The notes: generated by a model not told the origin, from the letters alone. A DNA stretch of 29,259 nt from a virus (IMGVR_UViG_3300035698_009226:1-29259); one strand, 5' to 3'. Positions 1,125 to 29,002 are shown, counted from the stretch's first letter. Made by a program: numbers and translations.

Positions 1125-2273
1125 CTTAAATGTTATGCTTGCCGTTTAAACAAGCTCTCGAACTTTCGTTCGAGTATCGGACTATATCATCACCCTCTTC
1201 GTTAGAAGTAGGGGTCGGGCGCTCGTGCGAGAGATTATTGTTGGGGACTCACTCTCGTAGTCTCTACACCTTCCGTAGAACCATTGCCCTCTACGGCTTG
1301 GCACGGGGTTAGCATCATCCTCGAATTCCAAATAGATTTACCTTCGCTGCTGTTTCTAATTCTAATACCAAGTTTTTTCATGTATTTAGAAAGGTTTCTA
1401 AAACTACCAAGTCCGTATAACTTGGCTATATCTCTAATAGATAATTTGTTATCTAAATACAACCACTCTAGTTTTTCCTTAGTAAAAAGCTCACGAATAG
1501 TCCATTTGTTCTTGGATGTTATAGCCTTCACCGTTAGCCTCTCGTCGTTTGACAAGAGACACCTTTCATTAAGTTCACCCGATTTATTTCTAGGGATTAC
1601 TCCACTAGGTGACGAGGTGTCAATTCTGGCTTTTTCTATTCTCTTCTTTATATGTAACCATATTTCATGTTTCCTGGCAATTTTAGATGATTCTTTTTCA
1701 TACAACCAACAGCCTAGCATATATGCTTTTAGTCCAGTGTATCTTATGTTAAAATAAGCGTTATTGCGTCTTGTTTTATAAACATAAACCTTAGGTTCTA
1801 AACTAGTAACACCTTTTATACACTCGACTATATCAGTGCCAAAGTCCGGAGACGCGTATATGTGTATAACATACGTGCCGTTCTTATGATAAAGACCACC
1901 ATCTCCGTCTATAAGACCTCGAAAATAATCGGTCTTATACTCATCTGGCATAGATGGTAATGTCTCATTCATTGTCTTATTAAACTTAAGACCATTGGTT
2001 TTAAGAAAGCTCATATAATCACTATCTAAATTACCATGAGAAGCATAGTATTTCTTATTACCATGTTCTGTTTCTTTTACTTTCAGGTTGAATGCTTTGG
2101 CAAAGTCTTCGACAACATCTTTATCCTTCTGTTCAATACGCACACCTTTGCCTTTATTAACAAGGCATCCATCTGCTATGATGAAACCTAACCAGTAATA
2201 TTGTTCTTCCATGTTCATACTTTCTTCTCTCCGTTTTGCCTGGTATTAGGCTGCTATAGATTCGTCACGATGA
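1125..2273 (-). other. Group I intron interrupting the tail tube gene (ends approximate)
   Basis: The 3' half has a recognisable group I ribozyme core, read on the minus strand. CCCGTGC-AA then a GTAGA/TCTAC hairpin (1273-1296) and GACTA (1258-1262) align by eye with the T4 td core. A hairpin of ACCC...CTTC/GAAG...GGGT (1192-1215, P8-like) is followed by GATATAGTCCG, whose TAGTC (1180-1184) pairs with GACTA to form P7. A perfect 7-bp stem with a GAAA tetraloop (1157-1174, P9) and a GCTTG/CAAGC hairpin (1137-1155) come next. The terminal G is most likely 1125, which keeps the exon 2 frame. The 5' splice site is uncertain. Exon 1 must end between about 2248 and 2281; candidates end in T at 2273, 2258 or 2278-2281. 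A 9-bp complement (2277-2285 with 2240-2248) may be P1. The intron carries a LAGLIDADG gene in the loop before P3. Confidence 0.85.
1235..2218 (-). CDS. Intron-encoded LAGLIDADG homing endonuclease
   Basis: A 327-aa single-chain endonuclease with two LAGLIDADG motifs: YYWLGFIIADGC (residues 7-18) and DYFRGLIDGDGGLY (97-110), with D16 and D106 as the expected metal-binding catalytic acids. Such enzymes cut the intronless allele of the gene and spread the intron by repair. A C-terminal region (about 225-300, KWTIRELFTKEKLEWLYLD...SIRDIAKLYGLGS) looks like a helix-turn-helix DNA-binding unit. GGAG (2229-2232) sits 10 bases before ATG 2218, so translation is independent of the exon frame. The last ~30 codons overlap the ribozyme core (the 1273-1296 hairpin and the 5' strand of P7), so these bases are under double constraint. 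Both motifs are intact and there is no frameshift, so the enzyme is probably active. Confidence 0.9.
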   Translation of the reverse strand: MNMEEQYYWLGFIIADGCLVNKGKGVRIEQKDKDVVEDFAKAFNLKVKETEHGNKKYYASHGNLDSDYMSFLKTNGLKFNKTMNETLPSMPDEYKTDYFRGLIDGDGGLYHKNGTYVIHIYASPDFGTDIVECIKGVTSLEPKVYVYKTRRNNAYFNIRYTGLKAYMLGCWLYEKESSKIARKHEIWLHIKKRIEKARIDTSSPSGVIPRNKSGELNERCLLSNDERLTVKAITSKNKWTIRELFTKEKLEWLYLDNKLSIRDIAKLYGLGSFRNLSKYMKKLGIRIRNSSEGKSIWNSRMMLTPCQAVEGNGSTEGVETTRVSPQQ

Positions 2274-2578
2274 GCATAATACCAGTGCGCCGGATCGTTC
2301 ATAATGTCCATAAACGCCGTACGATCGAACAACGTAAAGACAAATGACCCAGCAATACCCCTTTTACCTCTTGAAACACTGCGTGGTGCGGCACTTCCGA
2401 ATGTGTATACTGGGGTCTTTTCGCGAGTGATACTCACAGAAATTCCAGATAACGATATCATGGTCTTATCATCTGCTAATGCAGTGATATCAACCCCACT
2501 GAATGTCGTGTAGGTTTTTACAAAACGCGAGCCAATGCCCGCACCTCCAACAACATTCTGACTTGTACCATTTCCCAT
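2246..2578 (-). CDS. Tail tube protein, 5' exon (exon 1; its last codons belong to the intron)
   Basis: This is the N-terminal part of the inner tail tube of a contractile tail, the conduit around which the sheath is built. It lies directly downstream of the sheath gene, as usual in myophages. The core VSITREKTPVYTFGS...RGKRGIAGSFVFTLFDR is characteristic of Bacillus-type myophage tube proteins. The start is ATG 2578, because a perfect AGGAGGT (2585-2591) lies 6 bases before it; the GTG at 2584 abuts the Shine-Dalgarno and is rejected. The open frame ends at TAA 2246, but the real exon ends earlier (2248-2281), where the group I intron begins. The unspliced transcript would give a useless fragment of about 110 residues, so splicing is needed for tail assembly. 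With exon 2 the product is at least about 220 aa. Confidence 0.8.
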   Translation of the reverse strand: MGNGTSQNVVGGAGIGSRFVKTYTTFSGVDITALADDKTMISLSGISVSITREKTPVYTFGSAAPRSVSRGKRGIAGSFVFTLFDRTAFMDIMNDPAHWYYAHRDESIAA

Positions 2579-2591
2579 AGGCACACCTCCT

Positions 2592-10164: not shown

Positions 10165-11652
10165 TTATGGTCGTGCTGCAATAGGAGGTACTGCGGGATA
10201 TCTATCGATTGCTGATAGTGATACCATATTAACATTGTCAAATACAAAGTTTCTATCACATACTATGTTTCTAGCAATGGATATTCCACGCCCTTGTTCG
10301 TATATAGCAAAACCATATCGTTCTCTAATCTTAGTGTAAAAGCTTTCCCGTTCAATTTCTTCCCAAGACTGAGTTGTTGGATTCTCTTTTACAATGTGCA
10401 CCCCTACTGATTTAGAATCTATCATGATTAAATCTGTTAGATACTTAGCAATAGGTGCTGTGCCAGCTGCCCAATAATCAGCAGGCATTCCACCAGGAGC
10501 CGTAGCAGGATCTACACGCTTGGCATAAATCAACGGTGTTATAATAACGTTCAGGCCTTTTGGTAAACCGCTTGGCTTAATGTTATACGTAGCACCGAAA
10601 GGATTTAAACCCTGTGCGTAAGGATGTGCACCTAATCTACCTAGAGTATTAAGTTCCTCAGATTGAGGACCAACACCTCTACCACCTGCAAAGGTATACC
10701 CTAGTTTTCCAAAAGGATCGTCAAACTTGTTGCCGCCGTGTCCCTGTGGCATTAGGCTATAGTTACCCTGCTTTTGATATGTAACCGTGCCTGAGTTAAT
10801 AACTTCTCGCATTTCGGGGTCTGTCGCAAACATCATCCATGCAAAAGGATGCATGACTAATGTATCGGGTTCGTATCCCTGAAACCACATATGCCCGTAC
10901 ATTGCAAACAAGTCATTAAGAGTTATAGTACCATTAAACCCGCCGTCGATACCTCTACCTGTGGTAATACCACCTATAGAAACATTAGGTGTATGGTTAT
11001 CAAAAAAAGTATAACCCATTTCTTGTACCAATCGCATGGCTGTTTTCTCTTTAAGTCTTGCAAGAGCAGAACCGGCTTTTCTAAGCCATAGAGATTGTAA
11101 GCCCCATTGGTCATTTTCAAGCCCTTCCATACTAAAACCGATCTTTCCACCATATTTACGGATTTGAACAGAGATCACATCTCCACCGTCGATGTCTGGA
11201 TGCATCGTCTTATATTCACCAGTCTCGGCTACTTCATATGCTTCTAGTGCACCTATAGCACCGATCTTCACCTGGTCTCCAGGACTCGGGGCGTTCATCT
11301 TATCAAATAACTGTTCAAGTATCCATGTCTGGTACTCTATCTCGCTACGTAGAATCATCTCTACAGCTTGCGGATAAAACTTCATCAGCGCTGTCGAAGT
11401 AATAAGACCGCTATCTTTACCTTCTTTTCTTCTCTTATCGCCTCCGTATATATCGGTTACGAGATTATCTTTTCCTCTTACAACACGATCCCAGCCGTAT
11501 CTCTTTCCATTGATACCACTATATCCATCATTGACAATAAGATCAGCCAAGAAATTAATCTTGAACATGTCTTTAGCCATTTCTTCACCACTATCGCTTC
11601 CTCTTTTATAAGTCGTTGATTGTGTGGCGTCGTATGCGTTCATTAGTTTCAT
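10165..11652 (-). CDS. Major capsid protein (HK97 fold)
   Basis: A 495-aa shell-forming protein. Pattern recognised: long N-terminal arm, E-loop region (GAIGALEAYEVAETGEYKT...), P-domain spine helix (LWLRKAGSALARLKEKTAMR), an A-domain section (TLVMHPFAWMMFATDPEMREV), and a C-terminal stretch ...REEYGFAIYEQGRGISIARN-like (here RERYGFAIYEQGRGISIARN), common in myophage capsid proteins. It follows the protease-scaffold and 414-aa genes. AAGGAGGT stands 8 bases before ATG 11652, one of the best ribosome sites in the window, as expected for the most abundant protein. The N-terminal ~75 residues are charged and might be cleaved by the protease. Confidence is high from sequence pattern and position. 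Confidence 0.88.
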   Translation of the reverse strand: MKLMNAYDATQSTTYKRGSDSGEEMAKDMFKINFLADLIVNDGYSGINGKRYGWDRVVRGKDNLVTDIYGGDKRRKEGKDSGLITSTALMKFYPQAVEMILRSEIEYQTWILEQLFDKMNAPSPGDQVKIGAIGALEAYEVAETGEYKTMHPDIDGGDVISVQIRKYGGKIGFSMEGLENDQWGLQSLWLRKAGSALARLKEKTAMRLVQEMGYTFFDNHTPNVSIGGITTGRGIDGGFNGTITLNDLFAMYGHMWFQGYEPDTLVMHPFAWMMFATDPEMREVINSGTVTYQKQGNYSLMPQGHGGNKFDDPFGKLGYTFAGGRGVGPQSEELNTLGRLGAHPYAQGLNPFGATYNIKPSGLPKGLNVIITPLIYAKRVDPATAPGGMPADYWAAGTAPIAKYLTDLIMIDSKSVGVHIVKENPTTQSWEEIERESFYTKIRERYGFAIYEQGRGISIARNIVCDRNFVFDNVNMVSLSAIDRYPAVPPIAARP

Positions 11653-14454: not shown

Positions 14455-15151
14455 CTTGTTCCTCGTCTGTTGGCGTATATTTACTATCCACTATAGCAGA
14501 GTAAACAATATAAGGCAGCGAAGCATTGACACTCGCGATAGGGTCTTCACTACTATCAATAAGAAGTGTTATACCGCGCTCTATCGATATATTAACATCG
14601 TCTATTACTGTATTGCCTAACATTTCATAATCAGACAAAATTAGATGCATCTCGGATGATACAGCATCTATAAAAGAGGCCACGTCAATAGTAATCTCAC
14701 TCGATGTATCATCTATACCTAATGCCAATGAACCGATATGTTTGTCAACAACTTGTGTTATTCTCTGAATAAAATCGCTACCGCTGTCTATTTTATCACT
14801 GCTGTCGCATCCTAATTTCTTAGCCTGTTTATCAATACGTGCCAACACGGTAGATTTCTTACCTGGTCCTTTATAATGACTCAATATCTTACGTGCAGCA
14901 GCAACACAAGCCGAGTCAGGACAAGAAAAAGATCTATTGTGTCCGCAAAATACGGACGACTCCAGTTTGTTTCTCTTTGTCGCTGTCAGTTTCGCGTCGT
15001 CTTCCGACATGTCGCTATGTATAGCGTAACTGCTAACCAGATTTTCGTCTGCAATTATGTTGCCCATCTCAATATCAATAAATATTGCATCAAGTGCAGA
15101 TGAGCTACCATCAAGCACTCGTCTAATAGCTTCGTTTATTTTAACATTCAT
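14438..15151 (-). CDS. Portal-adjacent virion protein with FCG..RSF motif
   Basis: A 237-aa protein. Residues ~65-115 (SSVFCGHNRSFSCPDSACVA then RKILSHYKGPGKKS and KKLGC) match a motif known from many phage proteins encoded between portal and protease, where FCGPGRSFP...AAxxLxxRYKGPGxK is usual. The C-terminal half is helical and acidic, ending in TPTDEEQDEQEE. Its ATG overlaps the portal stop (ATGA, 15148-15151) with GGAGG 8 bases before, and its 3' end overlaps the protease start, so the three are co-translated. The motif is conserved but its function is not known to me. Capsid assembly is likely from context. Confidence 0.65.
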   Translation of the reverse strand: MNVKINEAIRRVLDGSSSALDAIFIDIEMGNIIADENLVSSYAIHSDMSEDDAKLTATKRNKLESSVFCGHNRSFSCPDSACVAAARKILSHYKGPGKKSTVLARIDKQAKKLGCDSSDKIDSGSDFIQRITQVVDKHIGSLALGIDDTSSEITIDVASFIDAVSSEMHLILSDYEMLGNTVIDDVNISIERGITLLIDSSEDPIASVNASLPYIVYSAIVDSKYTPTDEEQDEQEE

Positions 15152-16920
15152 TGTCCATTCCTCCGAAAAGACTTACTTAAGTCATAGTTTACACCCTCTC
15201 TATCTAATAGATAGGAGACATAAGGCGTGTATGATTTATCGAACTCGTAGTAGTCGTTCCCTACTATGATTGTGTCTACATTAAACTCTTTCTCCAAAGC
15301 TTCGTTGTATTCTAATATATACGAAGATAGATCATTCTTCTTAGGAGAAATCCTAGCGGGAGTGTTTTTAGTACCATGTTGATTCGTTGGTTTCTGCAGA
15401 CTAGCCGAATACCCCGCTAGTTTCTTCTTGCTTTCAAAATCGAAACTAGCTTCTGCCTGCGCTACAGGTATTTCTACAAAATTATGGTACAGTTCTTTTT
15501 CGTCGCTCTTACTTAAAGGCCTCAAACCGATAGCAGTCCTCGCTTCTGATATAGTTTTTACTTTATTAATCCATAGTTGTATGTTATGATTTTCAAGAGC
15601 TATCTTCTGATCAATATCAACAGGTGGAAACTCTAGCGTTACTCTGTTTTCCTCTGTTATCTGATTGTATTTATACCCCGCTTCCATTAACAACTGATCG
15701 AACAACCTATTAAAATAGCCACTTACCTTTCGCTGTATAGATATTATTCTTGCTTGGGACTCCTTACTAATAGTAACAGCGGTACCTCTATTGGCTGTAT
15801 CGCCTTCTCCTGTCTGTATATCCGAAGCATACAAACCAGCAAGCACCCTTTTCTTGAAATAAGCTAGATATGATTCCATTCTTAAGGCTCTACTTTCCGC
15901 ACCTATCATCGTGAGTTTAACTCTAGTAGACGTAGTTATCATTCCATTGCTTTCAAGAGTGTTTAATGCGGCTTGTACGCTATTGACCTCTGTATCGTCA
16001 CCGGCTGAATCCTCATCGCCAACTATCGCATGCAACAAAGGATGTGAAAACTGTAGAGCCAATAGTTCTATACATTCCTCTATCATTCTCAGTGTTTTTA
16101 TATCGTCTATAACAGGCCACATGGCAGGCATGGCTATTATCTCACCTGCTAATCTATTATAATAAATATGATCCATTTCTTCTAGCGAGAATCTTATAGA
16201 ACTATCGCTGGATGGCAACGAGTAAGAATAGTCTTCGTGTTCAAACTTGCCAGCGCCAACTGTGTTTATATAATCGGTATAATTGCCTTTCTTGTCAGTA
16301 ACAATAAACGTGTCCGTAGCGTTTTCAACAAAAATACTAGCAATAGGTTTCATCTTTTTATTATCCCATCTAATCCATGGTCTACCTGTGGAAGCTTTTA
16401 CGTCCAGTTTCTTATGTATAAAGCAATTGTGGTAAAGGACGAGTTGGGTAACAATATCATTGATAACAACATCGAGGCTTTGAGAACTGGCAAGCATCAT
16501 GTCTCTCATTCTTGCCTTAATATATTTAAGCGTGTCTTTGTCTTCGCCTACTATTTGATACTTCTCTTTAAGTACTGTATCAACTTGATTATTAACAATT
16601 CGCGATACAAACGAATCAGAGGAGTAAAAAAGAGAAACCCTATACAGGTTATAATTATGTCCATGTAGATATCTTTCTGTTTTTCTCTGGCTATAAGGCG
16701 AGGCTTTTTCAAATGTGTAGAGATTGCCTTTGCCGCCTTTTACAGCTGTCGCCATTTTAGTGGGTCTTTTAGATGTCTTGTTCTTCTGTTGGTTTATGTC
16801 TGATATTTTATCGTTTATAGCCTTCTCGAACTTATCCATGTTGTTGTTCATATCCAACAAAACGTTATTTATAACATTAGCACGTTTGGATTTATTTCTT
16901 CTGAATATATCAAATACCAT
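15148..16920 (-). CDS. Portal protein
   Basis: A 590-aa protein forming the dodecameric DNA gate at the capsid vertex. Recognised features: a stem/clip-type N-terminal region with RVSLFYSSDSFVSRIVNNQVDTV, a central domain containing MDHIYYNRLAGEIIAMPAMW and VIDDIKTLRMIEECIELLAL (the hallmark portal segment before the stem helices), then YLAYFKKRVLAGLYASDIQTG and the C-terminal SEARTAIGLRPLS typical of portals. The first ~60 residues are basic. It ends in TGA overlapping the next start. It is separated from the terminase by the 1271-aa gene, whereas portal and terminase are usually adjacent. Confidence 0.85.
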   Translation of the reverse strand: MVFDIFRRNKSKRANVINNVLLDMNNNMDKFEKAINDKISDINQQKNKTSKRPTKMATAVKGGKGNLYTFEKASPYSQRKTERYLHGHNYNLYRVSLFYSSDSFVSRIVNNQVDTVLKEKYQIVGEDKDTLKYIKARMRDMMLASSQSLDVVINDIVTQLVLYHNCFIHKKLDVKASTGRPWIRWDNKKMKPIASIFVENATDTFIVTDKKGNYTDYINTVGAGKFEHEDYSYSLPSSDSSIRFSLEEMDHIYYNRLAGEIIAMPAMWPVIDDIKTLRMIEECIELLALQFSHPLLHAIVGDEDSAGDDTEVNSVQAALNTLESNGMITTSTRVKLTMIGAESRALRMESYLAYFKKRVLAGLYASDIQTGEGDTANRGTAVTISKESQARIISIQRKVSGYFNRLFDQLLMEAGYKYNQITEENRVTLEFPPVDIDQKIALENHNIQLWINKVKTISEARTAIGLRPLSKSDEKELYHNFVEIPVAQAEASFDFESKKKLAGYSASLQKPTNQHGTKNTPARISPKKNDLSSYILEYNEALEKEFNVDTIIVGNDYYEFDKSYTPYVSYLLDREGVNYDLSKSFRRNGQ

Positions 16921-16929
16921 TGTATTACC

Positions 16930-19900
16930 TTATTTTTTACCTGTTGCGTTGCTACTCGTTTTCATACCTAACGCAACAGATGTCATTGTGTTAAAAAACT
17001 GTTGCAACACTACAGCAGACTCCGACTCGTTTAATTGGTCGTCTATTGGCTTCCATCTTTCAAAGTCGTGTATCAAACCAGATGGGTCTTCTGTTATAAG
17101 TGTACCAGCTTCCGTCGTTGTAGATGTTGGGTTGTCAACAACCGCTGCAGCGACTATCTCTTGCTTGCGCTGTATAATCCTCTCCAACATCTGTTTTACA
17201 ATTTCATGCATGTTGCGATCTGTTCTACCATATGCCATAAAAGATACTAAACTATCACCCTGTCCCGCTCTTTCAAGTGCTGCATGTAATGCTGTTTCAT
17301 AACCCGGATAGAGTGTTAAATTATCCATAGCCGTTTTTATATCAATGCCAGCTTGTGCTGCATAAGTTAAGTAGTCGTCAAAACTCATCATGCCTGTTGA
17401 TAATTCTTGTGCTAATACATTTTCTAACAAGTCTTCCTTGTCAAAACAATTGCCTACGGTATTAAGAAAATTGAGTATAAGTTCAAGCATGTTTATAAGC
17501 ACATCAAGAAACCCTAGTTTCATTCTTCCTATGCTTAAATCACCCCATAATGAAACGTTTTCAACGTTGAAAGTTAGCATCTTATCTATCTCTGAAACAA
17601 ACGATGCCTTTAATTCTGCTACTAAACACAATAACTGTGCTGCTACATCAAAACCCCATGGACAATTCTTACGAACAACTTCCCATGCTGGGCTTGTGAA
17701 AGATACGCTAATACTCTGCTCAAATGGCAAGAAGATGGCGTTTGTAAATGTTCCTAATATACGTTTAAGGGCGTCTGCGAATATTTTCATCATATCGCCT
17801 ATAGGTAGTACAAAGCCCAATAACTCAAGAAGATTACCCTCTGTCAAACCTCTCCATAGTTTTAATAGATCTATCATAACTTGAAGCGACATCTTTACAT
17901 CTTCTACAACCTCTCCAATATCACAAGCAGCTTCGCCGCCCTTGTCTTGCATCCAATCTTTTGCGCCATCCATAGCTTGTGACACTTTGCTACCATCTTG
18001 TTCATCTGATGCTATAAACGCTTCTTCGTATCCAGGACCCGTTGATGGGTCGTCTATACATTTACCAGCGAATGCTATGTTAAAAAAGTTCATTATGTCT
18101 CTAGATATATCCTCAACGCCGCCCATAAAATCTTCCATGTCTTTAAAGAACCCCGGCGGATCTTCTTCGCCCATCAGCATTTTCTGCATCTTTGTATAAT
18201 TGCCACTTCTAGTATATCTTAAAAGGGCCATGGCTTTCTGTAATTCTCGTCTGCCTTCTGCCCATTTCTCGGAGTTCATGCCAGCGGCTCTGCCTATATT
18301 AGCACCAATACCACCTATAGCGAAAGCACCCGCGCCACCTATAACAGCTCCCATGCCGCCACCGAATAACGCACCTGCCATAGAACCGCCTAGTATGTTT
18401 GCAACGCCTGTAAAAGGAAGGTCGTTTTCTGATTGACCGCCAAAACCAAACATGTCGCCGCTCATATCATATACATCCATAGCGGTACCAACAGCTCTAT
18501 AAGCAAAGTCCCGACCAGCATCTTCAAAGCTCATTGCCATTTGCAATCCAGTATTAAAAGACCATTTGGCAAAATCTCCTATGGCTATTAATGTGTAAAG
18601 TATGCAACATACGTAATCTCTAAACTCTTTTACCTGTTTAAAAGCATCTTCTATCCAATCAGCAGCAACTTCGAGTTCGTCTTCCATCATCTTAAGAAAG
18701 TTCTCTATGGCATCTTCATCACCTACCATATCGTTTTTTAATGCTGATGTACTACAACCGTTCTCGAAGTATCTATGATGATATATAGGATCGCATACGG
18801 GCAGACGATATATTGTTTTATCTTCGTCCGACTCCTCATCCATTTCTTTTATACCTCTAGTGCTAATATCCGTTTCGCATACCCAGTCTATCATACGATT
18901 AACCATTCTCTCTAACGCTGAATTCAATTTGTTGATATTAGATGAGCCTTTGCTAAACCATGATTCGCCTGTTATCCATTCCGATATAACATTGGCCTGT
19001 TCTCTACCATAGACTTCTGATGCTCTATATGCTCTCTCGCTATTGGATGCAAAATCTGTCCAGCCTTGTGCATCATATTCTAAACTATTACTGCCTTCGG
19101 AACTCATACTTTCTATCATGGCTGTCATTGTACCATTAACTCTTTTATAAAAGAGGCTTTTCAATCTTGGTATATATTTACGAGGAAGACAGTGCTGAAA
19201 CAACCATAGATCGGATTCTTCCATCTGTACGCACAGACGGGACATTATATACGGATGTTTTGTTAGTAGATATGTATCATCACCACTGCTATCTAACTCG
19301 TATAGCTTGGAACAAGGATGGTCGAATATATCAAAGGACATTATCTCTTCGTCTAACACTATATCATAAAACAAGCCTGAAGACATAACAATAGACTCGA
19401 ACTTATCTGCTATCTTATTAATATAGCCAGACTCTTCAAATATCTCTGTTCTGACAACTTCCTCATTGCATTTCATATTACTGAACATGTGGTCATACAT
19501 TTCCATATGGTATTGACCGCTGTTGTCTCTACCTGCTGACAATGAGGCATCATATCGTTCTAGTTGTTCAATGGTAGACTGTGTTGATTTTGCACCATTG
19601 AGTAGCTGTGTATTCATACCTAACAAATCAGCGTTGCGGCTAGACTTGTCTATTGTAGACATCACTTCGCGTGCTCTTTGAACATCCAATATATCTGTGT
19701 AAGGAGGATGGCTGCATTGTTTGTACTTCTCTGGGCTTTTACATATAGGTTCACCTCTCGATGTATTGAGAGCGTTTGTGGCGTTCCTTATAAAATCCTG
19801 AACGCATTCTAGTTCAAGAAAGTCAACTATGCTGCCTGCAGAACAGCAAGGTATATTCATTACATTCTCATCGTCAGGAGACGCTTCGCATGGCATGTCG

Positions 19901-20745
19901 CCTGGTTCCGCACACTTGAAACGGGGATATGAAAGGTCAATTGTAGCTAAACCACCGACACTAGCTACCTCTTTGCCGCCTATCAGTTCTTCGTCTTCAT
20001 CTGTAATATCCGGCGAGTTGACTAATAGAGGTAGGTTTAATAATTTCTCGATAATGACTTTTTCAGCTTTGCCGAAGAGTTTGCCTAGAGATTTTGGAAT
20101 ACCAAAAGGCAGGTGTAAATACTTAGGTATATACTGACATAAAAATCCAAATGTAGAATTAACAGCAACGGTAACTACTATTCTAGCTATTAGTATTATA
20201 AAGGTTAGTGGGTGAAACTTCTTAACCTTTATCTTCTTTGATAGCTCTTCTATCTGATCACTCTCTAATGCAATATCAGGCATTTCGTCTTCAGACTCTG
20301 GGCCTTGAGCGACAGCCATAATACATTCATACTGGCAAGCAGTTATGCTTGTACTACCTGTTAAATCAAGTACCTGTTGTTCTATAGGCGAACCCTCGAA
20401 ATCTAGAGGAGCCTTAAACACTTTGCTACCTGCGTCTATCTGACGATAAGGCATCATCTTTTGCGCCATTCTCGCCTTCTTATTAAGGTGTATAGCAAAG
20501 TTGTACATGCCTATAACCTTCTTCAAAGGCTTGTATGTTCTTGCGAGATATGATAGATTGGGTAGATCGTCCGCGCCTTTCAAAACATATCTATCAGCTT
20601 TACCTGCAACAGACTCGACAGATTCTATTCTGTTAGCCATATAGCTATCGGTGTTTGTGATTACCTGACGATTTGCAGCTACGCTAAGAGACGCAGCCAC
20701 ACTACCTTCTGTTTTTTCAATTGTTGGACTATAAAAAACTGCCAT
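16930..20745 (-). CDS. Giant Cys-rich membrane-type virion protein of unknown function
   Basis: A 1271-aa protein lying between terminase and portal. It is unrecognised as a family. Visible: a hydrophobic segment at about 176-204 (FHPLTFIILIARIVVTVAVN...), another near 708-724 (YVCCILYTLIAIGDFA), a long glycine-zipper at about 784-818 (GGSMAGALFGGGMGAVIGGA...), and amphipathic helical stretches towards the C-terminus (LGFLDVLINMLELILNFLNT). It has more than 25 Cys, many in pairs (NIPCCSAGS, YVCCILY, C...C spacing 280-345), very unusual among its neighbours. ATG follows the terminase TAA with no gap and no strong ribosome site, so it is probably translated by coupling. A role inside the capsid or in membrane passage of DNA (ejection protein) is my inference. 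Confidence 0.6.
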   Translation of the reverse strand: MAVFYSPTIEKTEGSVAASLSVAANRQVITNTDSYMANRIESVESVAGKADRYVLKGADDLPNLSYLARTYKPLKKVIGMYNFAIHLNKKARMAQKMMPYRQIDAGSKVFKAPLDFEGSPIEQQVLDLTGSTSITACQYECIMAVAQGPESEDEMPDIALESDQIEELSKKIKVKKFHPLTFIILIARIVVTVAVNSTFGFLCQYIPKYLHLPFGIPKSLGKLFGKAEKVIIEKLLNLPLLVNSPDITDEDEELIGGKEVASVGGLATIDLSYPRFKCAEPGDMPCEASPDDENVMNIPCCSAGSIVDFLELECVQDFIRNATNALNTSRGEPICKSPEKYKQCSHPPYTDILDVQRAREVMSTIDKSSRNADLLGMNTQLLNGAKSTQSTIEQLERYDASLSAGRDNSGQYHMEMYDHMFSNMKCNEEVVRTEIFEESGYINKIADKFESIVMSSGLFYDIVLDEEIMSFDIFDHPCSKLYELDSSGDDTYLLTKHPYIMSRLCVQMEESDLWLFQHCLPRKYIPRLKSLFYKRVNGTMTAMIESMSSEGSNSLEYDAQGWTDFASNSERAYRASEVYGREQANVISEWITGESWFSKGSSNINKLNSALERMVNRMIDWVCETDISTRGIKEMDEESDEDKTIYRLPVCDPIYHHRYFENGCSTSALKNDMVGDEDAIENFLKMMEDELEVAADWIEDAFKQVKEFRDYVCCILYTLIAIGDFAKWSFNTGLQMAMSFEDAGRDFAYRAVGTAMDVYDMSGDMFGFGGQSENDLPFTGVANILGGSMAGALFGGGMGAVIGGAGAFAIGGIGANIGRAAGMNSEKWAEGRRELQKAMALLRYTRSGNYTKMQKMLMGEEDPPGFFKDMEDFMGGVEDISRDIMNFFNIAFAGKCIDDPSTGPGYEEAFIASDEQDGSKVSQAMDGAKDWMQDKGGEAACDIGEVVEDVKMSLQVMIDLLKLWRGLTEGNLLELLGFVLPIGDMMKIFADALKRILGTFTNAIFLPFEQSISVSFTSPAWEVVRKNCPWGFDVAAQLLCLVAELKASFVSEIDKMLTFNVENVSLWGDLSIGRMKLGFLDVLINMLELILNFLNTVGNCFDKEDLLENVLAQELSTGMMSFDDYLTYAAQAGIDIKTAMDNLTLYPGYETALHAALERAGQGDSLVSFMAYGRTDRNMHEIVKQMLERIIQRKQEIVAAAVVDNPTSTTTEAGTLITEDPSGLIHDFERWKPIDDQLNESESAVVLQQFFNTMTSVALGMKTSSNATGKK

Positions 20746-22626
20746 TTAAAAGTTTAGTCTCCTTGATAAAGATGATTTGTATTTTCTGGTGCTTCTATTT
20801 TTCCCGCCAAATGCCATAGGTATAGCTGATTTGGCTCTCTTTACACTACGAGCAGTGGTCTCGTCTTCATACTTAGTTATCTTAACACCACTATTATGTG
20901 CTGCTTGTGTAAAACTATTGCTATGTTGCATATCTCTTACGCCACCCGGTAAAGAATAGCCTTTTTTGTTGTCTATAATAAGACGACCAACAATAGGATC
21001 TATCTTGCCATCTTTATTATCCTTTATCTGAGATGGATATAATGGTGTTGTCTCCGATGTGCTTATAGCAGGTAAATAACCAACACCGCCAAGATTCAAT
21101 ATATTAGTATACTCGATAGCGTATTGATATAGACACATCAAGAGACATGCTAGTATATGATCATTACCTTTGGAATATACCGGCTTACCATCTGGCGCGT
21201 AGTCCTTTATCTGTAGAGATCTCATTTGCCACACCAAACCTTGTGAGCGTTCAGAGTCTTCCTCAGCAGGTAAAACAACATCGATATCATCGGATTCTAT
21301 TAATCTTACAGCATTATCAACCATGAAATATTTCAACATCTTCTTCTTTGTGGTTTTTGTCAAAGGATCTATAATCTTAATCTCGCTTCTCCAGTTCAAA
21401 GGTTTCAACGCTTTGCTAAAACCCATAAGCGGATTCTTTTTGCCGTATAACTTTAAAAACTCTATCTGTGTATGGCCGTAACCCTCATCCATAGCTATAG
21501 TTGTTGGTTTATACTTCTTATAAAGAGCTATTATAGTTTCTATGGCTTTTGTTTGTGTTGCCTGGGAATCATGAATACTTTTTCTTTCTACGATTGTAAC
21601 TCTAGGTTTGCGCCCTACTTTATACATAATCTCTATTACAAGTATTTGAACACCGGCGTGTCTACCGTTCCAATCTATCCCAAATATATAATCACAATCA
21701 TCCTTTGGTAAATCGGTAATGTCCTTATAGCTATAGGTATTGTGTATCTTATCTTTGTATTTCCATTTGTGGGTTGGTTCTGGCACTATATCACAACCTT
21801 TGATAATACACTTGTCAAGTGCCACGTTTTTAAACACGCCTTGTTCTAACTCTCCGAACTCGGCTAATATTTCGTGGACCCAGTCAAGTTCTGTAGCAAG
21901 TGTGGCTCGAACTTGCGATTCCATAGCATCACTCCAATTCGGATTGACTTGTGATGGGTAGTGGTAGTGGGCATAGTCTTTATCAAAACAAATTCTATAA
22001 AACCAACTTCTAGCGCCAGTTGGTGTCGACGACGCCCATATCTTAACACCTGGATGTGATATAATAAAACCTATAATAGTCTTTAATGCGTTATTGACTA
22101 TATAATCAGCTTCGTCTAAAAACACAGCATGTGGAGATTTGCCTCTAACCTTGTCAGGCGTTTTATTAACGGCGTAACCGGACAATATGGATCCGTTGTC
22201 GAACTCTAATTCAAACAACTCGCGTCTGACGGTTTTCTTTTCTATAGAACCTTCTACTATAGTTCCCTTAATCATCGGTTCAATTTTATCCCAGATGGTT
22301 TTAAGGTTTTCCTGCCACGGAACTATTATCAGTGTATTAAAATTAGGTTCTGTATATGTCTCCCAAATAGCCTTAGCTGCTAGTGTTATTGTCTTACCTG
22401 TTTGTCGACCCAATCTGGCCGATATAAGCAGGCTACGTGTACTAATTATTTCTTTCTGGTGTTCCCAGAAGATAAGCGATTTTGTATCATCTTCTGGATG
22501 TTTTAAATATGTCTCTGACCATAATACAGGATCTCCTGCTATTACAAGTTCTTCTATCTGTCTCTTGTGTATTATCTTATTCTTATATAACTCGCCAATT
22601 TCTTCTTGGCTTATATATTTACCCAT
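20746..22626 (-). CDS. terL: Terminase large subunit (packaging ATPase-nuclease)
   Basis: A 626-aa motor that pumps DNA into the prohead through the portal and cuts it. ATPase: Walker A variant ARLGRQTGKT (70-79), Walker B AVFLDEADY with D171/E172, motif III ASSTPTG (198-204). Nuclease (RNase H-like): FGIDWNG (D318), IAMDEGYG (D380), KGNDHILAC (D489), the three metal-binding acids. Start: ATG 22626 is chosen because GGAGG lies 8 bases before it; the in-frame ATG at 22641 overlaps that Shine-Dalgarno and would add five residues (MEETV). The start overlaps the end of a 48-aa ORF. No small terminase subunit gene is recognisable in the window. Confidence 0.95.
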   Translation of the reverse strand: MGKYISQEEIGELYKNKIIHKRQIEELVIAGDPVLWSETYLKHPEDDTKSLIFWEHQKEIISTRSLLISARLGRQTGKTITLAAKAIWETYTEPNFNTLIIVPWQENLKTIWDKIEPMIKGTIVEGSIEKKTVRRELFELEFDNGSILSGYAVNKTPDKVRGKSPHAVFLDEADYIVNNALKTIIGFIISHPGVKIWASSTPTGARSWFYRICFDKDYAHYHYPSQVNPNWSDAMESQVRATLATELDWVHEILAEFGELEQGVFKNVALDKCIIKGCDIVPEPTHKWKYKDKIHNTYSYKDITDLPKDDCDYIFGIDWNGRHAGVQILVIEIMYKVGRKPRVTIVERKSIHDSQATQTKAIETIIALYKKYKPTTIAMDEGYGHTQIEFLKLYGKKNPLMGFSKALKPLNWRSEIKIIDPLTKTTKKKMLKYFMVDNAVRLIESDDIDVVLPAEEDSERSQGLVWQMRSLQIKDYAPDGKPVYSKGNDHILACLLMCLYQYAIEYTNILNLGGVGYLPAISTSETTPLYPSQIKDNKDGKIDPIVGRLIIDNKKGYSLPGGVRDMQHSNSFTQAAHNSGVKITKYEDETTARSVKRAKSAIPMAFGGKNRSTRKYKSSLSRRLNF

Positions 22627-22765
22627 TACTGTTTCCTCCATTTTTAGGCTGGCTAACAGTCAGCATCCATCCTTGTTCGCTATGCTCCTCAGGTTGATAA
22701 CCATCTGTCAGTGGACGAAATCTTGGTGGTTTATCTTTCTTGTCTTTCTTCTTCCAAAATCCCAC
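22619..22765 (-). CDS. Small ORF upstream of the terminase (48 aa, GTG start)
   Basis: GTG 22765 is preceded by AAAGGAG with 6 bases between, and the frame runs to TAA 22619-22621, overlapping the terminase start by 8 bases. The product begins MGFWKKKDKKDKPPRFRP and is very basic at the N-terminus, then Gly/Asn-rich. It is the first gene after the divergent promoter region. It is too short for a classical small terminase. A real gene is likely from its ribosome site and coupled overlap; the function is unknown. It may also serve as a leader that couples translation into terL. Confidence 0.55.
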   Translation of the reverse strand: MGFWKKKDKKDKPPRFRPLTDGYQPEEHSEQGWMLTVSQPKNGGNSNG

Positions 22766-22852: not shown

Positions 22853-23377
22853 ATGATACTATCAAGCTTGGCTAAAAAGGCACAAAACTTCACATCAAGC
22901 GGTATAGCAAAACGCTTGGGTCAGCGTTACATAGGTGAGCCGCACAGAGCTTTAAGGGTTTCCAAGGATTATTGGAATACCATAGTTAGACCCGACCATG
23001 GCATGAAAATACTAGAGACCAAAGGCATGAAAGGTGTCTTATGGAATGGTAAAGTGAGTATAGGTGGCGCGGTAAAGTCATATTTTACAGGGGCTGATAG
23101 ATATTCAAACGTAGCTAGAGGTATATCAGCATCAGGTAGGACGGCCGTAGCCGTCGGATTAGCAGGTAGTCTAGGTTTAAGGGGTATGCATTGGGGTATG
23201 AACAAGGGTGAAGAAATGGCATTTGGACCCCGTATACCTATGGCAGGTGGCAGTTACGGCGTGTCAAATACTCAAATAGGTCCAGCCAATGCTACCATGA
23301 CTAACATATCAATGATGAATTATAGAAAAAACAAGATGCGAGTATCGCAAACTAGAAGAGGATCGAGGTTTATATAA
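22853..23377 (+). CDS. Plus-strand virion-type protein with hydrophobic Gly-rich segment (174 aa)
   Basis: Unrecognised. A basic N-terminus (MILSSLAKKAQNFTSSGIAK) is followed by a Gly/Ala-rich hydrophobic segment at about 98-120 (TAVAVGLAGSLGLRGMHWGM) and a basic C-terminus (YRKNKMRVSQTRRGSRF). It is the first gene of the only rightward transcript in the window. AGGAGA lies upstream of ATG 22853. The next gene starts one base after its stop (23379), so the two are made together. Composition resembles small ejected or membrane-inserting virion proteins, but this is inference. Confidence 0.6.
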   Translation: MILSSLAKKAQNFTSSGIAKRLGQRYIGEPHRALRVSKDYWNTIVRPDHGMKILETKGMKGVLWNGKVSIGGAVKSYFTGADRYSNVARGISASGRTAVAVGLAGSLGLRGMHWGMNKGEEMAFGPRIPMAGGSYGVSNTQIGPANATMTNISMMNYRKNKMRVSQTRRGSRFI

Positions 23378-23378
23378 C

Positions 23379-24923
23379 ATGCAAGACTCTAACGCTATGC
23401 CGGCGCCACAATCATTAATGGGCGGCGACTACCCTAATACAGGCACAACAACAAGAATACTGGACTTTGTAAATCCCTTGTCGATGATGACCACAACGCC
23501 TTTCATGTATTACATGGGTATGAAAGCAGGTATCATGGGTTCAAGGATGAGCGGCGCAATGGCTAATGAGGCGAGCTTTGCCAAGAAGTTAAAACTGCCA
23601 TATGGTACAAGAAGTCTGTTTTACGGCGGAGATTTCGAAAACGCTAGAAGAACAATAGATACAGCCAACAAGGCCATGAAAAGAACGGGCGGTATAGCAA
23701 ATATAGCAGAAAGAAAGATACTGAACGAGAAAGTAGCAAATCAGCTTTTAAAAGGCGACATCAGCCCTGGTTTCATGAAAAAACCAGACGCTTTTAAAGT
23801 ATCTAGACTGGCCAAAGGTCTTGGTTTCTTTGCAGGTTATACACTAGGGTCTGATGTATTAGATATGGGGTTGGCAGGTTCGTTGTTGACAGGCGCTGCC
23901 GGTTATTATGGTATGGCTAAGTCTGGCGGCATAGCCAAGATGGTATATGATTTTAGCGACAAAAAGCTGGGCAGAACTCTAGCAGAAGCGGCTATAAATC
24001 CATCCATAGCCACGGGAAGAGGTTTAGTAGAATCCTTAACAGGCTTAAGCGATGCCAAGTTAAAAGGTGGATCTGGCACAATATTAAAAGGCATAAACGA
24101 TGCTAAAGGCCTAAACACGGCAACTGGCAGGCTATTCAAAGGTGGTTTCGGAAAATACGGTATAACATTGGCTTCTTACATGATGGGCGAATCATCGTTA
24201 AAGTTCGGAGCAGGGACAACAGCTAGCGGTATATCTGGCATACTCCAAGAAGAAATAAACACTACTATAAGAAAGGGTATAACCAAAAAGAGACTATTTC
24301 CTTTCATCGGAAGACCTCTACACCAGCAGTGGGGTGGAAGGGCGGCCGAGAACAAAACGATAAACGCCGCCATTAAAAAGAGCATAAAAACAGCTGTTAA
24401 AGAAGCATATACGGGAAAGATAGATACAGCGGAAAATAAAATCAGACTAACCAAGATACTAGAGAAAACCTTCGGCGGTAAAGCCGAAGTAGAAGCAGGC
24501 GCCATATTAGAAAAAACACAACAAGCCGTAATTAGTAGAAAAACACCCGCTAGTCTAGATAAGACAGCGGATAGTATATACAAGAACTTTATACAAACAG
24601 AAGAAGCAGGTGAGATAAGAAGGCTTGGACGAAAGCAAATAACCAAAGGCTTGTCGATAGCGGCAACTGGTAAGTTTATAGGTTATGCTACAACAGCATC
24701 GCTTGTTGTGCATTCTATAACCGCTGGGTTAAAATATAGTATGCATGCGGCAGAGACAATAGGTGGTGTATTATCACAGATAAGAACACCCGATTTTGGA
24801 TCAGGTACATCATTAGATACCCCTCAAGCAACAACAGAAAGACAAAGAGCTATGAACTCTATTCAAAACGCACTAGGTATGGGAAGATCGTTCTTAGGAA
24901 ACGAAGCCGCTTTTATACACTAA
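23379..24923 (+). CDS. Plus-strand virion-type protein with Gly-rich hydrophobic regions and a DFGSG peptide (514 aa)
   Basis: Unrecognised as a family. It is basic, Ala/Gly-rich and largely helical. Hydrophobic Gly-rich stretches lie at about residues 148-185 (GLGFFAGYTLGSDVLDMGLAG...) and about 428-450 (IGYATTASLVVHSITAGL). Some 20 residues after the second comes IRTPDFGSG (DFGSG at 472-476), a peptide found twice in the convergent 1360-aa protein, also after hydrophobic segments. The 3' end overlaps that gene's end by 4 bases tail to tail. The ribosome site is weak (GAGG 10 bases upstream), suggesting coupling to the 174-aa gene. The shared peptide suggests that these proteins bind the same partner or are packaged the same way. 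Confidence 0.6.
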   Translation: MQDSNAMPAPQSLMGGDYPNTGTTTRILDFVNPLSMMTTTPFMYYMGMKAGIMGSRMSGAMANEASFAKKLKLPYGTRSLFYGGDFENARRTIDTANKAMKRTGGIANIAERKILNEKVANQLLKGDISPGFMKKPDAFKVSRLAKGLGFFAGYTLGSDVLDMGLAGSLLTGAAGYYGMAKSGGIAKMVYDFSDKKLGRTLAEAAINPSIATGRGLVESLTGLSDAKLKGGSGTILKGINDAKGLNTATGRLFKGGFGKYGITLASYMMGESSLKFGAGTTASGISGILQEEINTTIRKGITKKRLFPFIGRPLHQQWGGRAAENKTINAAIKKSIKTAVKEAYTGKIDTAENKIRLTKILEKTFGGKAEVEAGAILEKTQQAVISRKTPASLDKTADSIYKNFIQTEEAGEIRRLGRKQITKGLSIAATGKFIGYATTASLVVHSITAGLKYSMHAAETIGGVLSQIRTPDFGSGTSLDTPQATTERQRAMNSIQNALGMGRSFLGNEAAFIH

Positions 24924-27900
24924 TAACCAAATACAACACCTCCTGTTGTTAGAGGCGCTTTATAACTACCATGATTTGTAGACATAGCGTTTATTGTCAA
25001 CTTCTTTACATCTACAGAAGGCAAACTTATGCTTCTGTGGAAGTAAGGTCTTACGTTGGTGGCATCTGTCAACGCCTCCACCGGAAGTATTCCATTATGC
25101 GCTGCTGTTATTTTGCCTTCAACATTAACCCTCTTGCGAACAATACCACTAGGGTCGAACCCATCGAGTATCTTATTATTATCAATATGTTTATACATAT
25201 AAGGATCTGACGCCGTTCTATTCAAACCTGAACTAGGTACATCGGCTAATCTTGCTACCGATGGTTTTGCCACCATGTTTGAGCCTTGTGGTAGTTTTAT
25301 CGTGTTCTTGTTTATAAACGACGTGGGATGTCCTGATAATCTTGTTGTACTTGCTCTTTTTGCTGCATTGACTGTTTGGTATAAATCTCTTTTAGATGAC
25401 TCCAATATAACGGTTGGGGTGTTGTATTTAGTGGCATCGACAACAGTTTCTAATGCCGTTCCAGTTGTATCTAACTGTTCCATGATGTTGTCAACAACCT
25501 TTGATCTATTGTTCTTTCCCATGTACGAAGACGATATATTCTCTACAGGTTTGCTTGTTTTAGCTGTAATCATATTGGTTTCGATATCGAAATCACGAAC
25601 GTTTAGTCTCATGTTATGGACTTTATCTGTCATGGCTTCTATACCACGATTGGCCCTATCTTGAGCATGCTCTAAACCTTTCTTTGGGGATCTTCGTATA
25701 ACGTTCTCCATCATATCGTTAGCTATCATTTTACCAGTCTTCTCTGATATAGGATTACCTGTCATAACAACAACGTCGCCTTGGAGTTGGGTTTTAATTC
25801 TGCTTGTTAAACCATTATAACTAAAACCTCTATGTTTTGCGTACTTGATAAAAGTATCTACAGAGTTTCTAACATAATTACCAACTCTGCCGTCAAACAT
25901 CCGTCTCAAACCCGAACCGAAGTCGGTGTATCTATGTCTTGATTCCGACCCCATTGTATAATTGCTTCTAAACGATTCAAGCACGCCTTGCGAGTCTCTG
26001 TCTTCTTCTTTCATTCTTGGATCGAGATCTATAGGCTCTCTATATTTAGTAGCTATAGACGTAAAACCAATACCACCAATACCAATAGCAAAAGCCTTCT
26101 TGTGTTTGGTAGCTATAGATGTCATGTTTCTTACACCTTCGTCTACATGACTTATCCATCTATTAGTTATCTCGTTGTAGTCCAATTTGGCCTTGGTCGT
26201 GCTTAGGGCTTGTTTCTTTAGTCCGTCGAATATACCGCCGACCTGTTTGTATAGACCTTGTCCTATCTGGGATTCGTTTGACTTTGTAGCAGCATAAGTC
26301 GATACCTTGTTCAACTGCTTCATGTATGAATCCATCAAGCCCGTAGACTTCATGGCTCTATTCCACATGTTACTAATATTGCGAAAGGTTCGATTAAAGA
26401 ATGAGGCACCCGATCCAAAGTCAGTGTGGAAGAATCTGTTTATCATCTGTATCCCAGAATCATGCCGTAGTCCTTCTATTTTTCTGTCAGGATCGCTACC
26501 TAATGTTTCATCGCCTGCGCCAAACGCTGCATACATTCTGGTAATAGCCGATACACCCACACTCAGCATAGCAACAGAGCCTATTGTTTTAAACGCATTA
26601 CCTGGCTTGGCAACCGGATACATCCTTTTCATCACCTTGTCAGGTATCTTGCCCCTAAACTTTGTTTCTATAACACTTGTGACATTCTTTAGTATCTTGC
26701 CTTCGTTGATTCTATACTTCTTATTAAGAGCATCGGCATAGTCAGACACAATACCACCGTATATCTCATGGTATGATCCCATAGTTAAGCCGCGCTTATC
26801 TTTTATTAGCTTCTCGGCATATGATAAGGCACCCTTTTCATTTATGTATTCACGGTCTACATTTATAAGAGTGCTTTTATCTTTTATTTTTGTTGTTACC
26901 AATCTCTCTAACAGTTTTTGCGTACGTACAAGCGTGTTATCTGTGGATTGCATGTGCTTCAAGGATCTTACTTTTACCCATCTATTGACTAGTTCAGCAT
27001 AAGTTCTTTTAGCTATCAACCTTTTATTGGGATCTATTTCATTATGAGTCATCTGCCTTAACTTATCAATAGATAAGTAACCCTTGTCGTCTATAGGTAG
27101 CAACTGCTTATAGTCGTTTAAGGACTCTACATCACCGAATTTAATCTTACCATCAACAGCTAAACTAGCAGCAGCGCCTTCGAGTTTAGAGTCCAACATG
27201 CCAACATGTTTTTCAACAAAAGGCAGGTCATCCGCAAAGAACCTATAAGTAGACTCGGCATCCAATCCTTTCATCTGTAAATCTACTGGCTTATTAAAGC
27301 TTTCGAGAAAGTCCGTTCGCGATTTACCAACCAAGCCCATTATATCGGCAGCTTCCGCAGCAGGTTTTTTAAATATACCTTTCATTGTTTCACTGTTAAG
27401 TCCGCCTATCTCTGAAAACAATTCCTGCATTTTCATGCCGTGTATGGTTTTTATATCAGCAATACCGCCTTCGGGTAATTCCAAACCTAATAGTCTAAGA
27501 TACTCCTCATCAAATTGGGAATTAAAAGCGTATATACCATACTTGGCTTTGTTTATAAAGTTTTGCATCATACCTGCAAACTCTTTACGATTGGTAGGGT
27601 CTCCTGCCGATGGCATATCAAGGCTGCCAAACGTTAAATCCATCATATTAGCATGCGAGCCGTCGACACCTTTTAGCTCTTGCATAAGAGGGCTATATAT
27701 TTTCATAGTCCTTTGTAGCTTGTGGTATTTGTCTTTTATCTTGACTTTGTCTTGCTCTGTCATGTTCAAATTGGCATTAGAGTCTTCAACGCTCTTTTTA
27801 GCAGATAACAATTGGAAAACATTGTTTTCCACCTCTTTGTTAGCGAGGAGTGTATTAAGATAGTTAGCCATGTTGACATTATGTGCTTTAACGTTCTTAT

Positions 27901-29002
27901 TAACGATAACTTTCTTGGCATCCATGCCATCTACTTGCGTTTGAGCTATCTCGTAGCTTTCGAGAGGTATATATTCTCCCTGTGTTGCCATCTCTCTTCT
28001 GGTGCCTGACACCGGGTCGAATATAAAGTTCCTTGTTTTATAACCCATTGATAATATATGCGACGACTTCTTTTCTTCTATACCCATAGTCTCAAGATCG
28101 ATAATCATGGATCTGCCAACATCGCCAGCTGTAATGGTGGCTTTCTTATTCCGTCTAGGAATATCTGGCATTATTATAGCTTCCATGCCAAGCACACTTT
28201 TATGAAGCTTCTCTATTTTCTTTACAGTCTCTTTGTCTCTGGTGCTCCAATGTTTCTCATCATGCTCTGATGTAATATGGTCTCGTATGTTATCTCCCGG
28301 TTTTAACCCTTTGGCGCTTTTAAGAGCATCTGTGAGCCTTTGTGGTATTAAAGTTTGAAGATTTACAACACGATGGTAATTTTCAACATGGTAATAATTA
28401 TCACCTATACGAACTTTCTTTCCAGGGACTATCATTTGCTTTACAATATTATGCTTTAACAGTAGTTGTTGTCTGGGCTTTGCCACCTCTTTCATTATCT
28501 CTTGAGACTTTTTCAATATCGGATCGCCCTCTGTAAGTATTTTATCCGATGTCTCAAATATAGGTGTTGGTGTAACGTTTTTATTCACCATGGCAGGTTT
28601 CTTGGTGTCGGATTGTTTCGTATCTGGTGATTTATAACTTTTAAACGGCACAGACGGAGTGGCTAAAATAGAGGGGGTGTCTAAAAAAGTCACAGCAGAG
28701 CCTTTTATAGCAGCTTCGCATAGCCCTATCTTACTCTTTATTCTTTCAAGGTTGTTGGCCACATTAAGATTAATTACTCTTTCATTTTTAATGTGTGTCT
28801 CGTATCCTTTTTTATCGAAGGACAAATTCGGACCTTTCTTCTCTTTAAAATAATGCAATATGTATGATGTCTTTTCTTTGCGTGTGAGATTAGATAGATC
28901 GGATACCTCGTCAATAGTATTGTTGGTATACATCAATTGGGCTAAATCGCCAGACTTCTTGCCCAGCAATTTTATAAACATGTCATGTGTCCTAGACGCC
29001 AT
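24920..29002 (-). CDS. 1360-aa protein: DEDD exonuclease-like domain plus hydrophobic segments and two DFGSG peptides
   Basis: Residues ~296-600 show the pattern of a DnaQ-like (DEDD) 3'-5' exonuclease: RSMIIDLETMG (D302, E304; Exo I), YGIYAFNSQFDEEYLRLLGL (N494, D498; Exo II), ADIKTIHGMK (D516), and STYRFFADDLPFVEKHV (Y586-x4-D591; Exo III, with spacing like the HxxxxD of E. coli ExoI). The first ~290 residues are charged, with a Pro/Thr-rich linker (105-165). The C-terminal half has hydrophobic segments (FKTIGSVAMLSVGVSAITRM and KAFAIGIGGIGFTSIA), each followed by TDFGSG (near residues 860 and 1026). GAGGT lies 8 bases before ATG 29002. It looks like a nuclease joined to a virion or membrane-type module. 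Exonuclease fold is moderately sure; virion location is inference. Confidence 0.6.
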   Translation of the reverse strand: MASRTHDMFIKLLGKKSGDLAQLMYTNNTIDEVSDLSNLTRKEKTSYILHYFKEKKGPNLSFDKKGYETHIKNERVINLNVANNLERIKSKIGLCEAAIKGSAVTFLDTPSILATPSVPFKSYKSPDTKQSDTKKPAMVNKNVTPTPIFETSDKILTEGDPILKKSQEIMKEVAKPRQQLLLKHNIVKQMIVPGKKVRIGDNYYHVENYHRVVNLQTLIPQRLTDALKSAKGLKPGDNIRDHITSEHDEKHWSTRDKETVKKIEKLHKSVLGMEAIIMPDIPRRNKKATITAGDVGRSMIIDLETMGIEEKKSSHILSMGYKTRNFIFDPVSGTRREMATQGEYIPLESYEIAQTQVDGMDAKKVIVNKNVKAHNVNMANYLNTLLANKEVENNVFQLLSAKKSVEDSNANLNMTEQDKVKIKDKYHKLQRTMKIYSPLMQELKGVDGSHANMMDLTFGSLDMPSAGDPTNRKEFAGMMQNFINKAKYGIYAFNSQFDEEYLRLLGLELPEGGIADIKTIHGMKMQELFSEIGGLNSETMKGIFKKPAAEAADIMGLVGKSRTDFLESFNKPVDLQMKGLDAESTYRFFADDLPFVEKHVGMLDSKLEGAAASLAVDGKIKFGDVESLNDYKQLLPIDDKGYLSIDKLRQMTHNEIDPNKRLIAKRTYAELVNRWVKVRSLKHMQSTDNTLVRTQKLLERLVTTKIKDKSTLINVDREYINEKGALSYAEKLIKDKRGLTMGSYHEIYGGIVSDYADALNKKYRINEGKILKNVTSVIETKFRGKIPDKVMKRMYPVAKPGNAFKTIGSVAMLSVGVSAITRMYAAFGAGDETLGSDPDRKIEGLRHDSGIQMINRFFHTDFGSGASFFNRTFRNISNMWNRAMKSTGLMDSYMKQLNKVSTYAATKSNESQIGQGLYKQVGGIFDGLKKQALSTTKAKLDYNEITNRWISHVDEGVRNMTSIATKHKKAFAIGIGGIGFTSIATKYREPIDLDPRMKEEDRDSQGVLESFRSNYTMGSESRHRYTDFGSGLRRMFDGRVGNYVRNSVDTFIKYAKHRGFSYNGLTSRIKTQLQGDVVVMTGNPISEKTGKMIANDMMENVIRRSPKKGLEHAQDRANRGIEAMTDKVHNMRLNVRDFDIETNMITAKTSKPVENISSSYMGKNNRSKVVDNIMEQLDTTGTALETVVDATKYNTPTVILESSKRDLYQTVNAAKRASTTRLSGHPTSFINKNTIKLPQGSNMVAKPSVARLADVPSSGLNRTASDPYMYKHIDNNKILDGFDPSGIVRKRVNVEGKITAAHNGILPVEALTDATNVRPYFHRSISLPSVDVKKLTINAMSTNHGSYKAPLTTGGVVFGY

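Follow-up and report, generated by a model that had tools for sequence, protein, structure and literature searches.

A giant terminase-adjacent protein with a probable divergent DEDDh exonuclease domain and a repeated linker in a 0305phi8-36-like myophage

We analyzed a complete IMG/VR virus record of the fragment-type class (IMGVR_UViG_3300035698_009226), which is 29,259 bases long and is called the window below. Its minus strand codes for a myophage head and tail module, in which PHROGs identify a terminase, portal, major capsid, and sheath. The gene for a giant protein of 1360 amino acids, P0001 (24920..29002, minus strand), lies upstream of the terminase and runs in the same direction. A preliminary description of the window had proposed that this protein, part of the structural module, carries a DEDD exonuclease domain missed by standard annotation. 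The open reading frame (ORF) is real, with an open frame and an ATG start, and the proposal is borne out by the motifs, by a profile, and by the recurrence of such domains beside the terminase in relatives. We consider it very likely that P0001 holds an exonuclease domain, and we are confident that it belongs to a family of giant proteins marked by a linker with the motif TDFGSG.

The exonuclease domain covers residues ~297–620 (27143..28114, minus strand), as placed by the exonuclease profile and by motif columns aligned with relatives. Exo I (300-IIDLETMG-307; 28082..28105, minus strand) contributes D302 and E304, and Exo II (492-AFNSQFDEE-500; 27503..27529, minus strand) contributes N494, F497, and D498. 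Both were placed by alignment and motif scan, and both stand as originally proposed, as does the order of the three motifs. Exo III had been read as Y-x4-D, but the candidate Y586-x4-D591 (586-YRFFAD-591; 27230–27247) is ruled out by the presence of H-x4-D in all aligned relatives. The motif is H599-x4-D604 (598-KHVGMLD-604; 27191..27211, minus strand), which starts thirteen residues downstream; its H-x4-D form makes the exonuclease type DEDDh. Four alignment runs (8–15 relatives) assign H599 and D604 to the columns that are invariant for Exo III. Two further MAFFT runs set another Asp in this column in place of D604. Because of this disagreement we also lean on a direct comparison with one relative, L099 (relatives are numbered by locus). 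The P0001 block G579-x3-E-x2-Y...H599-x4-D604 (KGLDAESTYRFFADDLPFVEKHVGMLD) matches the L099 block (KGWKLEDLYKLLPGEGIKGQAHEAATD), and the spacing from G to H is 20 residues in both. The D-x-E of Exo I, the D of Exo II, and the H-x4-D of Exo III are all present in order, and the stretch between Exo I and Exo II is unusually long (~195 residues). The strict ordered motif triple arose in none of 20,000 shuffles of P0001, and a loose version arose in 279 of 20,000.

An exonuclease profile trained without the window scored P0001 at 16.5 bits; the highest score among 2,000 shuffles was 9.7, and every other window protein got 4.6 bits or less. We treat this score as supportive rather than decisive because the iterated profile absorbed members without Exo I. 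Proteins recruited in this way in its late rounds (e.g. L123, L218, and L223) are not counted as exonucleases, and our exonuclease claims rest on an alignment of thirteen relatives (A12) instead. By its sequence, the domain is a very divergent exonuclease of the DEDDh 3′–5′ type, with predicted activity.

Searches of Pfam, PHROGs, NCBIfam, and PDB sequences gave P0001 no significant match. Family searches made directly with P0001 and its parts brought up HycI, EzrA, COMPASS-Shg1, and TTLL6 at chance level, and we rejected them as identities. A phmmer search of P0001 against the fetched loci found no homologue, and tblastn against isolated phages found no match for P0001, L150, or L122 and only the J domain for L110. 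Single-protein IMG/VR scans with P0001 and with the terminase found no relatives, and an IMG/VR scan with an exonuclease alignment of P0001 and L107 found no match. The relatives were found via position, by terminase and portal alignments that retrieved loci of the same phage group.

In several of these loci, the gene upstream of the terminase bears the same exonuclease motifs. Across A12, the D-x-E, the Exo II Asp, one further Asp, and the H-x4-D are invariant. The A12 profile matches DEDD exonucleases among PDB sequences (9mrd, E = 8.6e-16; DnaQ 8h18, 7.1e-7; Cas2-DEDDh, 2.9e-5). In Pfam, ten of the thirteen members match RNase_H_2 (best 1.1e-9), nine match the polymerase B exonuclease, and five match RNase_T, for which L126 clears the gathering score (24.4 vs 24 bits). 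The PADLOC DEDDh model matches eight of forty family members (2.2e-11). An AlphaFold model of the family representative L233 reached a predicted local distance difference test score (pLDDT) of 89 and a predicted template modeling score (pTM) of 0.88. Foldseek placed TREX1-homologue, RNase T, polymerase exonuclease, and ExoI structures at the top for this model, and DnaQ and DEDDh phage proteins in a viral library. For the structures listed from the PDB, the template modeling scores (TM-scores) by query length are moderate (0.34–0.56), a range compatible with a helical insertion. P0001 shares Exo I–III with known DEDDh exonucleases (DnaQ epsilon, RNase T, TREX1, and ExoI), and the family representative shares their fold. 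Unlike them, the P0001 domain is embedded in a giant late-region protein and has the long stretch between Exo I and Exo II.

Two further features were seen among the exonuclease genes of relatives. In L131 (4208–7754), L133, and L139 (4214–7763) the gene consists of two overlapping ORFs with the break within the domain; a frameshift, a programmed slip, and a split gene are candidate explanations. In one subgroup, the exonuclease proteins end in H-x-x-M-G-x-x-K-[YF] (C-termini of L150, L144, and L164). The same motif also ends gp006 of Bacillus phage KLEB27-3 (L004 3041–3814), a small protein upstream of its terminase.

Many proteins upstream of the terminase contain repeats of a linker with the consensus FSGxDDxYNTIEGLxHxGxAxxxRKxxTDFGSG[YWF]. 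When trained on sequences from outside the window, a linker profile gathers fifty proteins of 318–2419 amino acids, each with one to six copies. P0001 is the sole window protein that it matches, with two copies and 34.4 bits in total (E = 2.8e-9), against 11.4 for the best of 3,000 shuffles. Copy 1 (residues 841–865, KIEGLRHDSGIQMINRFFHTDFGSG; 26408..26482, minus strand) scores 17.2 bits, and copy 2 (residues 1017–1037, ...RHRYTDFGSGLRRMF; 25892..25954, minus strand) scores 18.1 bits. This match is evidence for family membership independent of the exonuclease profile. First linker copies in the family tend to come after a hydrophobic stretch (55 per cent above a hydropathy of 1.2, vs 6 per cent of random positions), and both P0001 copies come after a hydrophobic segment. 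By hydropathy, segment 1 lies at residues 806–827 (26522..26587, minus strand), before copy 1, and segment 2 lies at residues 970–984 (26051..26095, minus strand), before copy 2. The hydrophobic segments of the preliminary description are therefore present, but its label ‘membrane-type’ is too strong, because there are just two and both are modest (mean Kyte–Doolittle 1.42 for segment 1, taken over residues ~803–828). A linker search in contigs of 84,980 genomes found no relative, and a literature search limited to open-licence papers found no relevant description of the TDFGSG linker.

In relatives, the linker separates a DEDDh exonuclease, a staphylococcal nuclease (SNase), a protein kinase, an HExxH metallopeptidase, a J domain, and an ATP-grasp domain. 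Among forty scanned members, fourteen have an SNase, thirteen a protein kinase, eleven an ABC1-type kinase, one a DnaJ domain, and one an R2K ATP-grasp (R2K_2); PADLOC kinase and DEDDh models agree with these domain calls. HExxH is found in sixteen of forty-six members, against 1.7 expected from shuffles (maximum of five in 200). L126, L086, and L166 carry a PD-(D/E)XK-looking stretch after the exonuclease, and by tblastn, L166 has a weak match to Cas4-type exonucleases (E = 2e-4 to 2e-3). In the whole-family alignment, a frequent order is exonuclease, hydrophobic segment, linker, SNase, linker, kinase, and tail. In a large share of loci, an exonuclease or linker protein is encoded upstream of the terminase and on its strand. 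Sixty distinct terminase loci had 6 kb or more of upstream sequence; twenty-seven of them have an ORF there that matches the exonuclease profiles, and thirty-one have a linker protein. These are not population rates, because the linker was used in choosing some of the loci. The P0001 family, whose genes sit immediately upstream of the terminase in 0305phi8-36-like myophages, is apparently a previously undescribed group of giant modular proteins.

The closest known concept to this family is that of the polyvalent proteins, which are giant, multidomain, encoded near virion genes, and thought to be packed and injected with unlike activities for use just after infection (Iyer et al. 2017; PMC5512222). 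The P0001 family is likewise giant and multidomain and lies near late virion genes (in the window, those for the terminase, portal, capsid, and sheath), and P0001 relatives include kinases and zincin-like metallopeptidases. P0001 differs from polyvalent proteins in showing one recognizable enzyme only, while relatives such as L099, L110, and L113 hold two or more of unrelated activity, and in lacking the zincin-like metallopeptidase that is common, if not obligatory, among them. The only DNases that Iyer et al. (2017) reported in polyvalent proteins are ParB-like. Another point of comparison is the 0305phi8-36/BtI1 lineage: the phages to which the window is related in its head and tail module are described as homologous to 0305phi8-36 in the record of Acinetobacter phage ME3. 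The baseplate hub protein of BtI1 was reported in 2007 to contain an SNase domain (PMC2147016), so this lineage offers a partial precedent for a nuclease in a structural protein.

We think that P0001 is probably a giant protein of the polyvalent kind, with a divergent DEDDh exonuclease, that is carried in the virion and delivered to the host. The idea of a carried enzyme is made more likely by the relatives, where the exonuclease is linked by the repeated element to domains such as SNase, kinase, and metallopeptidase; such combinations, seen in dozens of viruses, suggest an enzyme kit taken into the host inside the virus particle. The N-terminal half of P0001 would supply the exonuclease, followed twice by a hydrophobic segment and a linker, and then by a C-terminal part without an assigned function. 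The protein would be made late, together with the head genes, and packed in the virion, where the linker and hydrophobic segments would serve as sorting, anchoring, or processing elements. Carriage in the virion is, by analogy with polyvalent proteins, somewhat more probable than its absence. P0001 would then be delivered along with the DNA, and its exonuclease would break down or trim nucleic acid inside the host cell, whether host DNA, ends generated by a defence system, or a nucleic-acid signal; any single one of these targets is much less probable than carriage itself. More tentatively, the TDFGSG linker, often placed after a hydrophobic segment, could be a dedicated packaging, anchoring, or cleavage signal of a modular effector-loading system. 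Nucleases, kinases, and peptidases would be swapped behind one address tag for delivery from virion to host, with the DEDDh exonuclease as a frequent first module. We regard this version as a possibility that falls short of being likely.

Several results weigh against a carried, active exonuclease. The AlphaFold model of P0001 residues 285–640, built from ten sequences in a check for the RNase H-like fold that L233 shows through its matches to DEDD structures, had a pLDDT of 36.7 and was discarded. Single-sequence hhalign of P0001 against A12 saw Exo I alone, at 14.6 per cent probability. Library searches recognized no second enzyme in P0001 despite its two linkers, and it contains no HExxH. 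In KLEB27-3, the genes at the corresponding position are annotated as hypothetical and other genes are called structural. Finally, we found no virion proteomics for any family member in the open-licence literature.

The main rival explanation is a role related to the terminase, in which an exonuclease for DNA packaging or maturation is made with the terminase and trims the ends of the concatemer or of the packaged genome in the producing cell. The gene does adjoin the terminase in many relatives, and also in the isolated phage ME3. A protein that trims ends, however, would not need the kinases, metallopeptidases, J domain, and second nuclease that share these polypeptides, and some terminase-linked family members have no recognizable exonuclease, so we consider this role unlikely. 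It is also rather improbable that the P0001 domain is a decayed, inactive exonuclease retained to bind nucleic acid or to play a structural role in the virion. Its strong divergence, the long insertion separating Exo I from Exo II, the failed model, and the low profile score would all fit decay, but the five catalytic positions (D302, E304, D498, H599, and D604) are intact and in order, and decay would be expected to hit these first. Known proofreading subunits are ~180–400 amino acids long, and the giant size of P0001, its linker and hydrophobic segments, and its late-gene position make it very improbable that the replication machinery merely has a conventional DnaQ-type exonuclease, for proofreading or repair, that is encoded in the late region by chance. 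L144, L149, L150, and L164 do match the PHROG ‘DNA polymerase exonuclease subunit’, but weakly and below usual significance (E = 0.03–0.2). A coincidence of motifs in a protein without an exonuclease domain, which would fit the lack of a direct library match and of a confident model, is highly improbable given the shuffles of the strict triple, the two profiles that both single out P0001 in the window, and the clear DEDDh domains of relatives at the same gene position.

Two isolated phages offer comparable proteins, both annotated as hypothetical. ME3 gp011 (YP_009595843.1; 529 amino acids) resembles P0001 in its exonuclease motifs, its hydrophobic C-terminal segment, and its position just upstream of the terminase. 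It differs in size and in Exo II, where FE stands in place of FD, and it scores weakly with the profile (E = 8e-4). CDS0027 of Moorella phage MTATph1 (WPA89514.1; L002 30512–34441) is a tail-region protein of 1318 amino acids with a clear DEDDh domain at residues ~870–1085 (VAVLDLETTTL ... GQNVVGFDIP ... GAHEALTD). Like P0001, it holds this domain within a giant protein; unlike P0001, its gene does not adjoin the terminase. Neither protein matches the linker profile. A literature search turned up no papers on either MTATph1 or KLEB27-3.

These results extend a single motif sighting to a family of at least fifty giant proteins in uncultivated large phages, most of them without useful annotation. 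If carried in virions, the family would reveal the way in which an entire lineage of phages equips its particle with nucleases, kinases, and peptidases, and its DEDDh and SNase nucleases would lengthen the list of DNA-attacking activities in polyvalent proteins. The repeated linker is a concrete sequence that can be tested as a packaging or cleavage signal, and the two isolates bearing the exonuclease put virion proteomics within reach.

The remaining genes of the window place it in a known phage group. The terminase large subunit (20746..22641, minus strand; PHROG E = 4.9e-32) was an anchor for finding relatives, and PHROGs also identify the portal (15148–16920), major capsid (10165–11652), and sheath (2863–5484), all on the minus strand. 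By terminase and portal, the closest isolates are MTATph1, ME3, and KLEB27-3, at 24–30 per cent identity. The ME3 record states that its corresponding genes are homologous to those of Bacillus phage 0305phi8-36, and we therefore call the group 0305phi8-36-like; the window has the related terminase, portal, and tail proteins of such a myophage. The order of genes in L107 is that of the window on both sides of the exonuclease gene. The gene before it in L107 (3312–4199) resembles a window ORF upstream of P0001 that is cut by the contig end (29063..29257, minus strand; phmmer E = 6.4e-5), and the gene after it resembles the ORF for a protein of 514 amino acids (23379..24923, plus strand). In relatives, phmmer finds homologues of this 514-residue protein encoded after the exonuclease gene and before the terminase.

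Between P0001 and the terminase, two window genes (174 and 514 amino acids; 22853–24923, plus strand) run opposite to all their neighbours. Homologues of the 514-residue protein are on the terminase strand in every locus showing both genes, and the window phage therefore seems to have undergone a local inversion. A search for inverted repeats nearby found weak ones only. The C-terminus of the 514-residue protein (24744–24923, plus strand) carries a signature, FGSG...TERQRA...IQ...RSFLGNEA, that is nearly identical in L087 and KLEB27-3 gp009. It is possibly a head-assembly signal related to the FGSG of the linker.

Between the terminase and portal lies a gene for a protein of 1271 amino acids (16930–20745, minus strand). 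Its match to a tape-measure PHROG is weak (2.2e-4), and it had no homologue among the relatives compared with it. At 756–2584 (minus strand), a LAGLIDADG ORF (1235–2218; Pfam, 1e-7) is flanked by two short ORFs. An Rfam intron search of this region gave no match. The short ORF upstream of the LAGLIDADG ORF resembles the tail tube genes of MTATph1 and KLEB27-3, and the tube gene of the window may be split by an intron with a homing endonuclease.

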